Virus record (IMG/VR): IMGVR_UViG_3300042447_000158
Span: 1 to 32,728 of that record
Reading direction: 5' to 3' (one strand)
DNA length: 32,728 nucleotides
From: a virus
The notes under the pieces are model-generated. The model ran no database searches and was not told where the DNA came from. It saw nothing but the letters and a program-made list of their open reading frames with translations. Numbering within the stretch: the stretch's first letter is position 1; every line of letters begins with the position of its first letter. Both the position numbers and the translations under genes were made by a program. Below are positions 4,215-32,428 of the stretch, in pieces.

Positions 4215-4820
4215 ATGAACATAGAAAAGTTAAAAGGAAATATTCCTGACACAGTGATTGCACAAATCCCTGGTGTAGTAGAGAAGTTTGAGATTAATAC
4301 TCCTTTACGTTTAGCTCATTTCCTAGCACAAACAGGACATGAATCAGGTGGATTCAAAGCTGTTACAGAAAACTTAAACTATGGTGCTGCTGGTTTACAG
4401 AGCATCTTTAAGAAGTATTTTACTGCTGAAAGTGCTGTTGAGTATGCACGCAAACCTGAAAAAATAGCAAATGTTGTATATGCAAATCGTATGGGAAATG
4501 GTAATCAAGCGTCTGGTGAGGGTTTTAAATACTGTGGAAGAGGATACATCCAGCTCACTGGTAAGGACAATTACGCAGCATTTGATAAAACTGTTGCTGA
4601 AGATATTCTAGCTAACCCTGAACTTGTAGCTACAAAGTATCCTTTATTGTCTGCAGCTTGGTTCTTCCATAAGAATGGATTACATAAGATTGCTGACGAG
4701 GGGGCTACAGATGCAGTGGTTACTAAGGTGACTAAGCGTGTTAATGGTGGAACAATTGGTCTACCAGATCGTATAAAACATTTCAACGAATACAATAACC
4801 TTTTAAATGGTAGTATATAA
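4215..4820 (+). CDS. GH19-type endolysin (chitinase-like lysozyme)
   Basis: 201 residues, the usual size of a single GH19 catalytic domain. HFLAQTGHESGGF carries the likely acid catalyst Glu43, and YCGRGYIQLTGKDNY is the conserved GH19 substrate-cleft motif. As I know the family, it cleaves the beta-1,4 bond between MurNAc and GlcNAc of peptidoglycan in phage lysis. There is no signal peptide, so it needs a holin; candidates lie directly upstream. The stop overlaps the next ATG (TAATG). Confidence 0.9.
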   Translation: MNIEKLKGNIPDTVIAQIPGVVEKFEINTPLRLAHFLAQTGHESGGFKAVTENLNYGAAGLQSIFKKYFTAESAVEYARKPEKIANVVYANRMGNGNQASGEGFKYCGRGYIQLTGKDNYAAFDKTVAEDILANPELVATKYPLLSAAWFFHKNGLHKIADEGATDAVVTKVTKRVNGGTIGLPDRIKHFNEYNNLLNGSI

Positions 4821-5212
4821 TGACACAAGAAGAAAGGAATGAAAAGATATCTGAGCAACTGGCAGCTGATAAAAGTAAGTCAGGGTTGGTAGAGAAGTTA
4901 GTTTTCACACTTTTACCTATTTGTGTATCAGCTATTGGATGGTTATTGACTCAAGTGAGTACCTTAAACAACCAGATAACTGTTTTAAATAATAAGATTG
5001 CAGTGGTAGTAACTACTGAAAATAAAGCTATTCCTCCACAGGGAACTACTATTGAGATGGAGGCTATTAGGGCAGCAGCAGCACAAAGCAGAGCTGATAT
5101 GAAGATGGAAATCATACAAAAAATGACTGATATTAAAGAATCTGCAGCAACTGAAAGAGCAGAGATCAAACAGCGTTTAGCTGTATTAGAATACAAAAAC
5201 AAATTAAGATAA
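4820..5212 (+). CDS. Single-TM, long coiled-coil protein
   Basis: 130 residues. A charged N-terminus (about 1-25) precedes a TM helix at about 26-44 (LVFTLLPICVSAIGWLLTQV) and a long helical, heptad-like region (LNNQITVLNNKIAVV, then repeated Met/Lys/Glu helix to the end). This matches inner-membrane spanin topology, and it follows the endolysin directly. The gene at 5212 has the same design, so the i-spanin cannot be assigned with certainty. Confidence 0.6.
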   Translation: MTQEERNEKISEQLAADKSKSGLVEKLVFTLLPICVSAIGWLLTQVSTLNNQITVLNNKIAVVVTTENKAIPPQGTTIEMEAIRAAAAQSRADMKMEIIQKMTDIKESAATERAEIKQRLAVLEYKNKLR

Positions 5213-5514: not shown

Positions 5515-5843
5515 TGAGAACATTAACATTTTTAATATTAATAAGTCTATATGGATGTCAATATACCACAGCTCAGCACATTGATGAAACAGTTAAAGAA
5601 GATAAAGAGTTTGAATCTCTACTTAGCAAAGTTTCAGAAAATAATAAAAATAGTGCAGCTGTACAAGAAGGTGCTACCAAAGCACAAACAAAAATAGTAA
5701 ACCAAGCAGTTAACCAAATTGTATCATTAAAGGCAGAGGTTAGCTCATTAAAATCTGAATTAATTAATGCTAAAAGTAAACTTGATAGCAATCTTGCTGA
5801 CACTGGTGTCAAATTTAACCTATTGCCAGTATCCAATCGTTAA
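5514..5843 (+). CDS. Lipoprotein with coiled coil, putative outer-membrane spanin
   Basis: 109 residues. The signal peptide (about 1-14, RTLTFLILISLYG) ends in a lipobox-like LYGC, making Cys15 the predicted lipidated residue. The rest is helical with a strong heptad region (VSLKAEVSSLKSELINAKSK). It would sit in the outer membrane facing the coiled coil of the neighbouring TM protein. The last 77 nt overlap the start of the next gene in another frame. Confidence 0.65.
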   Translation: MRTLTFLILISLYGCQYTTAQHIDETVKEDKEFESLLSKVSENNKNSAAVQEGATKAQTKIVNQAVNQIVSLKAEVSSLKSELINAKSKLDSNLADTGVKFNLLPVSNR

Positions 5844-9985: not shown

Positions 9986-10587
9986 TGCCTGTTATTTATA
10001 AAATATTATCTCCTTCTAATAAAGTCTACATAGGTCAAACTTGGAACTACAAAAAAAGAATGTCAGGGTATAAAAATATATCTTGTAAAAGACAGCCTAA
10101 ACTTTATAACTCTTTATTAAAATATAGTGTTGATAATCATTCATTTACAATAATTTATGAACTTCCTGAAGACATAAGTCAAGGTGTTCTTGATACATAT
10201 GAACAGTTATATATAGATCAATATAGAGACTGTGGTATACAACTAATGAATATTAGAGAAGCAGGAAGTCATGGAAAACACTCTCAAGAAAGTATTGAAA
10301 AGTTAAGAAAAGTAAACGTAGGAAGAAAATACTCTGATGAATTTAAAAAAAGAAGAAGTGAAATAATGAAAGGTAATACCCTAAGGTTAGGGTCATCTCA
10401 ATCAGAAGAAACTAAACTAAAGATGGGAAATTCTAGAAGAGGACAAGTTAGATCTGAAGAAACTAGACTCAAAATGAGAAATTCAGCCATTGGTAAAAAG
10501 AAGTCTCCAGAACATATTAGAAAAGTGGTGGAGGCAAAAAGAAGAAATAGAGAACTGAAACTTGAAATAAATTTGGATAGTAATTAA
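9985..10587 (+). CDS. GIY-YIG homing endonuclease with NUMOD3 repeats
   Basis: 200 residues. The N-terminal GIY-YIG nuclease appears as VIYKILSPSNKVYIGQTW with YIG at 15-17 and an Arg a helix later (KKRMSGY). About 95-180 carries NUMOD3-type DNA-binding repeats (HSQESIEKLRK, SEETKLKMGNS, SEETRLKMRNS, SPEHIRKVVEA). This is the phage T4 Seg-type architecture. The final nine residues are outside the family pattern and look captured from the gene before. Confidence 0.9.
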   Translation: MPVIYKILSPSNKVYIGQTWNYKKRMSGYKNISCKRQPKLYNSLLKYSVDNHSFTIIYELPEDISQGVLDTYEQLYIDQYRDCGIQLMNIREAGSHGKHSQESIEKLRKVNVGRKYSDEFKKRRSEIMKGNTLRLGSSQSEETKLKMGNSRRGQVRSEETRLKMRNSAIGKKKSPEHIRKVVEAKRRNRELKLEINLDSN

Positions 10588-10603
10588 ATTATACATAACT
10601 TTG
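10572..10603 (+). promoter_or_regulatory. Bacteroidota-type promoter for the basic-protein operon
   Basis: TTTG (10572-10575), a 20-bp spacer and TAACTTTG (10596-10603) match both elements. The -33 box is inside the last codons of the GIY-YIG gene. Transcription would start at about 10607, 19 nt before the ATG at 10626, and could cover everything to the terminator at 13443. Confidence 0.65.
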
Positions 10604-29753: not shown

Positions 29754-30515
29754 TTAAAATATTGATAATTGTGTAAATGCTTTCTCTTCAGCTTCCCATG
29801 GAGCTGTTTGATCATATGCATATTCATTAAAGAATCTGTGTGCTTTGATATGACTCTCCATCCAGTTTGCAGGATGTGATTCTTTCATAGCAAATGTTGT
29901 GTAGTTGTACAACTCCCATACGCTATCCTTAGCACCATAATCATGTGTAGGAGCTTTTAACTCTCTACTGATAATGTTCAATTGTGTAGATGTAATGAAT
30001 TGTTCTTCTAACATCATTCTACCAATCAATTCAGCTTTTACACGCTTGGTGATTTCTATTTGCTTCATGTCTTCTCTTTGCTTTTGCATAAGAAAGAATG
30101 TATCTCCTGCAGACTTAATATAATCTTCAATTGCACTTGGTGTGAATGATTGTATCTCACCAACATGCTTCTTTTTGAATGTACCAAAGTCTCCTGATAC
30201 ACAACCATTTTGACAAATGAATATACGTGTACCAATAGCAAACTTTAATGTAAGTTGCTTGTTGTAGCTGTTTTGCCAACCTATCTGTAATTGCATCTCA
30301 CTGTCTGCAACATTACTAATGCTAAATCTACCATTAGCTATTTGACCATCCACTGCTGATGAATAGGTCTCTTTGTCTAATGTAAATCCTGCTTTCTCAA
30401 TACTGTTTAACGTAAGGTCAATCAATTGTGAATGACTCACTGGCTTATATGTACGTGTTTGTACAGGAACTGGTGCATTTATGATCAGTTCCTTTGTGGT
30501 GTTAAATGTGTCCAT
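29754..30515 (-). CDS. DUF932-like phage protein
   Basis: 253 residues. Matches in outline the DUF932 pattern: PVSHSQLIDLTLNSIEKAGF, GRFSISNVADSEMQLQIGWQ, then CQNGCVSGDFGTFKKKHVGE and a helical C-terminal half with VWELYNYTTFAMKES. The family is frequent in phages and plasmids, sometimes next to replication genes; its molecular role is unknown. Its ATG overlaps, in TAATG form, the stop of a remnant of a primase gene, showing an ancestral primase-DUF932 coupling. Confidence 0.7.
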   Translation of the reverse strand: MDTFNTTKELIINAPVPVQTRTYKPVSHSQLIDLTLNSIEKAGFTLDKETYSSAVDGQIANGRFSISNVADSEMQLQIGWQNSYNKQLTLKFAIGTRIFICQNGCVSGDFGTFKKKHVGEIQSFTPSAIEDYIKSAGDTFFLMQKQREDMKQIEITKRVKAELIGRMMLEEQFITSTQLNIISRELKAPTHDYGAKDSVWELYNYTTFAMKESHPANWMESHIKAHRFFNEYAYDQTAPWEAEEKAFTQLSIF

Positions 30516-30589
30516 TATAACAGGTTTTTTGTCTTTAAATAATTTTCTATTGCTTGTAATCCATGGACTTTGGCTAGATCAGCCCAAGT
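30515..30589 (-). pseudogene. Remnant of a second primase 3' end
   Basis: In the frame just behind the LAGLIDADG gene's end, 24 codons and a TAA encode TWADLAKVHGLQAIENYLKT then KNLL. The intact primase ends DWADLSRKYGLKIIEDILKE then KNIL: 13 of 24 identical, no gaps, stop at the same place. TGGGCTGA is identical in both, and the HEG's own TGA stop lies inside it. The remnant has no start of its own that would give a primase. It is best read as the displaced original primase end. Confidence 0.8.
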
Positions 30590-31367
30590 ATGCTTTATAC
30601 TTCTCATATTTTCTATTTAACTTAATGCAGTTATCGTCTTCATAGATATATCTACAAAACTTCAATACGTCATTTATTCTATGAATGTATATGTACCAAG
30701 AGTTTCCTCTTTTGTCTTGTTTTGTAAATACATCTATATCAAGTTGAGATTTTAAAAAATCACATAATCCTTTGCAAAAGTTTTCACTCCCAACAAAGTT
30801 TAACATTATTCTTTTTTGAGAGTTATAAATACACCCATCACCATCAAAATACCCTCTTATAAAATCTCTTATATAAGGCATTTCTGATGGGAACTTTAGC
30901 ACGAGTGATTTATTTTGAATAACTCCTAGTTTTTGAAGGTCATCAATAAGAATTTTAGAGTTTAGTTCTATTTTAGATTGAGCTTTACCAATGTAATTTG
31001 TTCCTGTAATTAGTTTTGATTTAGTATAATTCAAAGGTTTTTGACTATCTATATCTTTTTTAAACTCTTCTAAAATGTAGTCATCCTCTTTTGTAAGTTT
31101 AATTGCACAACTATTCTTCTTTGGAAAAACACATCCATCAGCATATATTAATCCTAGAAAGTATGCTTTGTTTGGAGTGTTTATTTCTTTGAAATAGTGT
31201 TCATTAAACTTATATTTCTGAGCACTAAGAACTATTCCATTTTTTCTTAAATGACTGCCAACTGTAGGATTTGATATCCCTAATTCTTCTGCTATCTGAT
31301 ATGTGTTTTTCTTCTCAACTACATATGCATGTATCATGTAGTCTATTTGTTCTTTTGTAGTTTTCAT
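30579..31367 (-). CDS. LAGLIDADG homing endonuclease with N-terminal HTH
   Basis: 262 residues. An N-terminal helix-turn-helix (TYQIAEELGISNPTVGSHLR, about 22-41) precedes the two LAGLIDADG helices: YFLGLIYADGCVF (71-78 core, catalytic Asp) and FIRGYFDGDGCIY (171-178 core). Both repeats in one chain make a monomeric enzyme. It lies between the primase and the remnant of another primase end, so its cut site is presumably the primase gene. It has its own strong promoter and is probably leaderless. Confidence 0.9.
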   Translation of the reverse strand: MKTTKEQIDYMIHAYVVEKKNTYQIAEELGISNPTVGSHLRKNGIVLSAQKYKFNEHYFKEINTPNKAYFLGLIYADGCVFPKKNSCAIKLTKEDDYILEEFKKDIDSQKPLNYTKSKLITGTNYIGKAQSKIELNSKILIDDLQKLGVIQNKSLVLKFPSEMPYIRDFIRGYFDGDGCIYNSQKRIMLNFVGSENFCKGLCDFLKSQLDIDVFTKQDKRGNSWYIYIHRINDVLKFCRYIYEDDNCIKLNRKYEKYKAYLG

Positions 31368-31371
31368 AATA

Positions 31372-31402
31372 CAAATATATGTAACTTGACTGATTTAGCA
31401 AA
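31372..31402 (-). promoter_or_regulatory. Bacteroidota-type promoter for the LAGLIDADG gene
   Basis: Minus strand: TTTG (31402-31399), a 19-bp spacer and TATATTTG (31379-31372), both elements perfect. The -7 element ends only 5 bases before the ATG at 31367, so the mRNA should have almost no leader. Confidence 0.65.
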
Positions 31403-31423
31403 ATAAACTATGTTAAATAATTG

Positions 31424-32428
31424 TTAAAGTATATTCTTTTCTTTAAGAATATCTTCTATGATTTTTAAACCATACTTGCGACTGAGGTCAGCCCAGTCTT
31501 TAATACCTTCTGCTAGATACTGACGTGGGACGTTAGTATAGTCAAAGTCAAACATCTTTGTAATTTGTACAGAATTCTGTACACCTACATCATCAGCATC
31601 AAAGCTTAGTATTTGCCTATCAGAGTTAGCTTTTAGATATTCTACATTCTCGTGTGAGAAACATCCAAGACCCTCATTCTGGACAGCACAGCTGCATGGG
31701 AATATCTTCTTCATCACCATATAGTCTTTCTTACTCTTGTTGATGAATGCTGTCTTACAGTCTTTTATATTCTCTTTACCATCCATTGCTGTGATAGGAA
31801 CATTATTAGGCATCCACTTATGCTTCTTATCAGCATATGGCCTATATATCTTCCAATACTGTCCTTCATAAAGGTAACCAAATCTAAGCTCGTCTTCTCC
31901 TAATGGGAACCTTTGCTTATTAAGATATAGTTCTTTGATAGAATACACATTGTTATCTCTGAGGTCCTGGAGATCCTGGTGATACTCTGCCCAATACTCA
32001 AGTTCTCTATTAGTGAACTTTCTAGTCTTGACCTGAATCAGGGAATATCTCTTCTCTATCTCAGGCTGTTTGTATTCAGATATAATCTTCTTGTACTCTC
32101 CTGTCATGACACCTGTAGAAAAACCTAGACCAAAGTCTCTGTCTATCATCTTCAAAGTATCACTGACGCTGGGAAGGCTATGAAGCTTCTGAACAAAATT
32201 AAAACAATCACCACGAAGACTAGTATCAGCATAGTCTATAAACATTAGATAGCCCATCTTGTTACCAATCATAAATGATGGATTGTTCTCATGCCTGAAT
32301 GGAGAATAGGTCACTCTGTTAATTTTCCAATCTTGATTAGGCATGTAATACCTAAATATATCATACTCTGATATCCTACTTAGAATAGCTTCTATAGACA
32401 TCTTTGTCTTTCTTTCTCCAGTAATCAT
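31424..32428 (-). CDS. DnaG-type primase, zinc-ligand and Toprim variants
   Basis: 334 residues from the ATG at 32428 (a second ATG at 32401, MSIEAIL, is also possible). The N-terminal domain follows the DnaG CHC2 pattern (YSPFRHENNPSFMIG; RGDCFNFVQK), but the zinc-binding Cys/His are changed. The Toprim domain has RQILSFDADDVGVQNS (D-x-D) and NKSKKDYMVMKKIF where most have a Glu motif. It makes RNA primers for replication. No helicase domain is present in the chain. Its last 24 codons may have been supplied by the neighbouring homing element. Confidence 0.75.
   Translation of the reverse strand: MITGERKTKMSIEAILSRISEYDIFRYYMPNQDWKINRVTYSPFRHENNPSFMIGNKMGYLMFIDYADTSLRGDCFNFVQKLHSLPSVSDTLKMIDRDFGLGFSTGVMTGEYKKIISEYKQPEIEKRYSLIQVKTRKFTNRELEYWAEYHQDLQDLRDNNVYSIKELYLNKQRFPLGEDELRFGYLYEGQYWKIYRPYADKKHKWMPNNVPITAMDGKENIKDCKTAFINKSKKDYMVMKKIFPCSCAVQNEGLGCFSHENVEYLKANSDRQILSFDADDVGVQNSVQITKMFDFDYTNVPRQYLAEGIKDWADLSRKYGLKIIEDILKEKNIL

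Follow-up and report, generated by a model that had tools for sequence, protein, structure and literature searches.

A homing endonuclease element has, very probably, inserted in the 3' end of a crAss-like phage primase gene and has carried with it a replacement 3' end that keeps the gene working. The stretch of DNA analysed (the window) is the whole of the uncultured virus record IMGVR_UViG_3300042447_000158, 32,728 bases on a single metagenome contig. Its gene content is crAss-like (primase, RIIA/RIIB, ribonucleotide reductase, RecA and uracil-DNA glycosylase), and the relatives of its primase among named phages are mainly crAss-like as well.

All features of interest lie on the minus strand, in the order primase, 56-bp spacer, LAGLIDADG endonuclease, orphan primase tail and DUF932 gene. 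The primase (31424..32428; PHROG 12622 DNA primase, E 1.2e-31) is a DnaG-like protein of 334 aa, and its gene has the full length of 1005 nt seen in relatives. It is a hybrid, with a resident body in which the last 23-24 codons have been replaced. The last resident bases are GGGC (31491..31494), predicted from the break points in the window and in a second phage, L084, to be the left copy of the cut-site centre. They are followed by the replacement 3' end, or rescue tail (31424..31490), which ends in ADLSRKYGLKIIEDILKEKNIL and a stop codon; the active C-terminus reads DWADLSRKYGLKIIEDILKEKNIL and ends with its stop at 31424. Next comes a Bacteroidota-type promoter of the endonuclease, TTTG-N19-TATATTTG (31372..31402), identified by a pattern with 5 matches in the window vs 0.82 expected. 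The other matches are at 2071-2101, 2489-2520, 5689-5718 and 10572-10603. The endonuclease gene (30579..31367) encodes 262 aa, with an N-terminal helix-turn-helix and two LAGLIDADG motifs (Asp77 and Asp177). Its TGA stop overlaps a second GGGC (30582..30585), with which the left-behind 3' part starts, and the displaced original primase 3' end as a whole, the remnant TWADLAKVHGLQAIENYLKTKNLL plus stop, is found at 30515..30589. The TAA of the remnant and the ATG of the DUF932 gene (29754..30515; Pfam DUF932, E 9.5e-7) have one base in common at 30515, as in relatives without the endonuclease. The initial annotation, made from these letters alone, had described the active and orphan tails as ungapped, of the same length and 13/24 identical, and had placed the remnant after the endonuclease with its TAA overlapping the DUF932 start; the sequence bears out both descriptions.

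The insert amounts to 909 bp (30582-31490, one GGGC included), lies in the primase gene at a GGGC that precedes the gene's end by 23 codons, and consists of the replacement tail with its stop codon, the promoter and the endonuclease gene, flanked by GGGC copies at 31494-31491 and 30585-30582. Its border within the primase is abrupt. Compared with the element-free L002 the primase body is 98% identical overall at the nucleotide level and 97.3% identical over the last ~450 bases before the tail, whereas the tail is 54% (0.540) identical. This drop from 97% to 54% at the junction is the one anticipated near 31498 by the initial annotation. The same pattern is observed for L084 relative to its sister L176 (body 0.973, tail 0.556), while among 29 endonuclease-free control pairs whose bodies are 0.95 or more identical the tail identity never fell below 0.83. 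The match between L084 and L176 extends to GATTGGGC and picks up again in the L084 remnant at GGGCTGATCT, with an overlap of four bases. L084 thus breaks at the same base as the window, and in both phages the insert lies between two GGGC copies. It had been argued earlier that a stretch shared by both tails fixes the junction to within a few bases: the sharp boundary stands, but the shared stretch is now reduced to GGGC, since L084 shares only these four bases. Removal of the insert (909 bp in the window, 1114 bp in L084) leaves an in-frame primase of exactly 1005 nt in both cases, and GGGC is present at the junction position in 123/138 endonuclease-free genes. LAGLIDADG enzymes leave 4-nt overhangs, and the four-base overlap would be the expected trace of such a cut centred on GGGC.

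The comparison of the window with L002 (29754-32728) also contains a probable recombination breakpoint that coincides with the insertion site: the primase and the bases upstream of it are 97-98% identical, while the remnant, DUF932 and the following genes are about 79-83% identical. Because the genes downstream drop as well, an additional recombination at the insertion point is likely in the window.

To see what the site looks like without the element, we took primases 61-97% identical to that of the window from IMG/VR and reduced them to 169 distinct genes. Like the window, all sequences compared come from metagenome contigs. The endonuclease directly follows the primase stop in 4 of these, window included, and the other 165 are endonuclease-free. 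A profile of related primase tails was then run on the 3 kb downstream of the relatives' primases. It matched the window remnant with E 9.4e-15 and the L084 remnant with E 5.1e-13, and it detected no second tail at the 165 endonuclease-free loci, where the best match had E 0.13. With two such matches and all others weak, the window remnant is not a chance similarity. The primase ends of endonuclease-free close relatives resemble the remnant, e.g., DWADLAKAHGLQAIETYLKSKNLL, and the tails of L007 and L010 are identical to it at 64/75 nt; the L084 remnant matches the tail of L219, from its own wider clade, at 67/75 nt. In L005, L006, L007 and L010 the primase gene leads, as TTATAATGG, directly into DUF932 through TAATG (TAATGG with the next base). 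The native primase 3' end of the window is therefore found downstream of the endonuclease, in a form that matches element-free relatives. Both of these features had been predicted by the initial annotation, which had named as counter-evidence close relatives ending in the window's active tail; that tail was not found among its close relatives or in its clade.

Because deletion of the insert restores an in-frame gene, the 909 bp could in principle be an intron or intein that is removed from the RNA or protein, with the remnant as the true 3' exon. We regard this as very unlikely: there are stop codons between primase and endonuclease, the hybrid primase already has its full length, the insert has only ~56 bp of non-coding sequence, and Rfam showed no intron, either in the region with hits allowed up to E 10 or, at the gathering threshold, anywhere in the window, in L082, in L084 or in L308. 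As specific candidates, a group I or II intron was rejected on the lack of an intron RNA core in Rfam, an intein because the endonuclease is a separate ORF with its own start and an intervening primase stop, and a split gene of the MobE kind, in which two ORFs are needed, because the primase is full length. The window is one uncultured contig, and one may also ask if it is a chimera of metagenome assembly; that is extremely unlikely given that the same gene order is found in four other contigs with different record numbers and that L084 contains an independent second remnant.

These four contigs hold the closest endonucleases in IMG/VR, with identities to that of the window of 73% (L082), 69% (L084), 68% (L083) and 58% (L337), the next being at about 40% or less. 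In each the endonuclease is located directly behind a complete primase, which together with the window makes five phage lineages. The spacers of L082, L083 and L084 contain TTTG-N19-TATATTTG or a near match, aligned with the promoter in the window. The remains of the old tail differ: two lineages (window and L084) have the full tail, one has five codons and one has a fused, respelled copy. In L082, AAAGGAATAACATAG (KGIT and a stop) right after the endonuclease stop is the primase end of the relative L115. The endonuclease of L337 ends in NMKEVEEHFKKKGLLI, a copy of its own primase's SMKEVEEHFKKKGLF, each followed by a stop; 13/15 residues match, 9 of those 13 via synonymous codons. No remnant is detectable in L083, where a glycosylase gene directly follows. 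In L084 the full old tail is kept behind a 60-aa ORF (4782-4964) that lies between endonuclease and remnant, and at the corresponding place in L337 there is an ORF of 58 aa; both may be passengers of the element. L337 also has a further tail-like stretch, LIEDYLKERKIL and a stop, before the next gene (4965-5050, E 0.007). This may be a still older remnant, i.e., a third primase tail, and suggests two successive invasions; close relatives of the L337 primase were not found. When 76 loci with endonucleases from the wider family were examined for duplicated 3' ends, only the window clearly exceeded the shuffles, the score of L084 being marginal because its own tail is divergent. A second, different LAGLIDADG endonuclease is seen in L082 at 2107-2982, before the primase start and with an overlap of ~40 bases, and L030, L088 and L115 have endonucleases similar to this second one ahead of their primases.

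Where do the replacement tails come from? The initial annotation had proposed a foreign primase 3' end. For L084 the case is strong: the best match to its active tail comes from a distant clade (84, against 59 for the best within its own), which points to the L083-L312 clade as donor. For the window a foreign origin is plausible, and a donor of its active tail was not found among the compared primase tails. One may object that an in-place duplication of the tail around the inserted endonuclease, followed by selection for changes that let the upstream copy escape cutting, could have produced the two tails with nothing foreign involved. In favour of this, the two tail copies of L337 differ by 9 synonymous codon changes while encoding nearly identical protein, and the active tail of L083 fits its own clade. 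However, in the window and L084 the bodies are 97% identical to those of sisters yet the tails are 54-56% identical, which is far too much change for that time without import, and duplication in place does not account for the resemblance of the L084 tail to a distant clade. We thus consider it unlikely, and prefer an element that supplies the 3' end. The active tails do not form one group, nor are they each other's closest relatives, so that either tail and endonuclease do not always travel as one tightly linked unit, or divergence of the tails has come later.

The anatomy, the empty sites and the recurrence are observed; the preferred mechanism, in which the cut, the copying and the resistance are inferred, would proceed as follows. 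In a mixed infection, a phage without the element would have its primase gene cut around GGGC by the endonuclease. The left end of the cut, with a primase body matching that of the donor, would then copy the tail, promoter and endonuclease from the donor, while the right end would be rejoined at GGGC on the basis of little homology or none. The target would in this way be split, with its left half before the new tail and its right half in the remnant; the resident tail itself does survive downstream, as an untranslated or orphan remnant. Neither copy would be a complete target, but only if the new tail is spelled differently in the right half, since otherwise the gene would be cut again. A different spelling is thus required, and the spelling does differ: to the right of GGGC the window tail differs from L002 at 14/22 bases and from its own remnant at 13/22, and the active tail of L084 differs from its remnant at 12/22. 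The bases of a nearly invariant Asp codon after GGGC are altered in L082, L083 and L084, while the window tail is altered further to the right of GGGC than this codon. From these differences the replacement tail would be expected to resist cutting. It is in frame with the resident gene, giving a 334-aa primase ORF whose tail break coincides with the insert, and since this hybrid is complete no splicing is needed.

The endonuclease itself is intact. It matches Pfam LAGLIDADG_3 (E 5.7e-12), Asp77 is invariant and Asp177 is more than 90% conserved among 35 endonuclease relatives, and the structure model (mean pLDDT 93.9) matches the folds of the double-motif enzymes I-Tsp061I, I-SceI and I-OnuI. 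Two motifs with a conserved acidic residue in a monomeric fold place it in the LAGLIDADG class. Estimates of pN (0.16-0.22) vs pS (0.63-0.79) indicate that the endonuclease is under purifying selection and kept functional, since non-synonymous change is far below synonymous change. Between the phages concerned, divergence is also lower in the endonuclease than in the primase body, L083 and L084 having 74% identity in the former and only 59% in the latter, which fits movement of the endonuclease between phage lineages. A search of one genome per bacterial or archaeal species gave no close match to the endonuclease (best 35-37%). For named phages, all relatives of the primase and all relatives of the endonuclease are below 60%, and the arrangement was not found in named isolates, where the flanks of matches were not read individually.

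Homing endonucleases usually spare the host gene by residing in introns, inteins or intergenic positions. The element described here would solve the problem by bringing along a respelled copy of the part it destroys, as engineered home-and-rescue drives do. Prophage e14 likewise supplies a new, differently spelled 3' end upon integration in E. coli icd and leaves the old one behind, but it uses a site-specific integrase, not an endonuclease, and the 909-bp insert contains no integrase. For mitochondria, Paquin in 1994 reportedly described the Allomyces atp6 hybrid gene with its mobile endonuclease ORF. The initial annotation had rightly pointed to this gene as the nearest precedent: together with four Glomus genes (atp6, atp9, cox2 and nad3), whose hybrid ends are transcribed, it has the same architecture, with an endonuclease near the 3' end of the gene, preceded by a foreign 3' end in frame, and the native 3' end, which matches close relatives, left downstream (PMC3630166). 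Unlike these, the case in the window concerns phage DNA and a replication gene, with only 23 codons replaced and a Bacteroidota-type promoter of its own, and it recurs in five phage lineages whose replacement tails differ. The insertions in Ophiostoma rps3 and Phlebia cox2 share the endonuclease insertion and the duplicated C-terminus displaced downstream, but are mitochondrial and partly within introns (PMC4019555). The free-standing homing endonucleases MobE or MobA of T-even and Aeromonas phages are also inserted in phage replication or nucleotide genes, where they split the gene into two needed pieces, whereas in the window the first piece is completed by the supplied tail (PMC2988022). 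The open-access literature yielded no phage precedent with a supplied 3' end, subscription papers being outside the scope, and so, as far as found, an architecture known from fungal mitochondria is new in phages.

Engineered home-and-rescue drives combine a nuclease acting on an essential gene with a recoded rescue piece; they are synthetic CRISPR constructs in insects, whereas the element in the window is natural and drive-like only by inference (PMC7968924). The likeness would be one of logic, not of descent. With that understood, we lean toward regarding the element as a natural home-and-rescue gene drive, i.e., one of a family of homing elements that specialise in an essential replication gene, carry recoded, cut-resistant 3' ends and spread between crAss-like lineages without intron or intein. 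The hybrid also shows how the C-terminus of an essential replication protein is reshaped by selfish elements. With five lineages, in two of which comparison with the empty site defines the boundary to a few bases, the case is directly testable: there is a predicted cut site, there are predicted resistant and sensitive sequences, and the old and new alleles are known. In addition, the element-free primases of L220 (2450-2525) and L026 (4927-5002) have DWALL tails like that of L084, without the nearly invariant Asp, and are possibly natural cut-resistant alleles.
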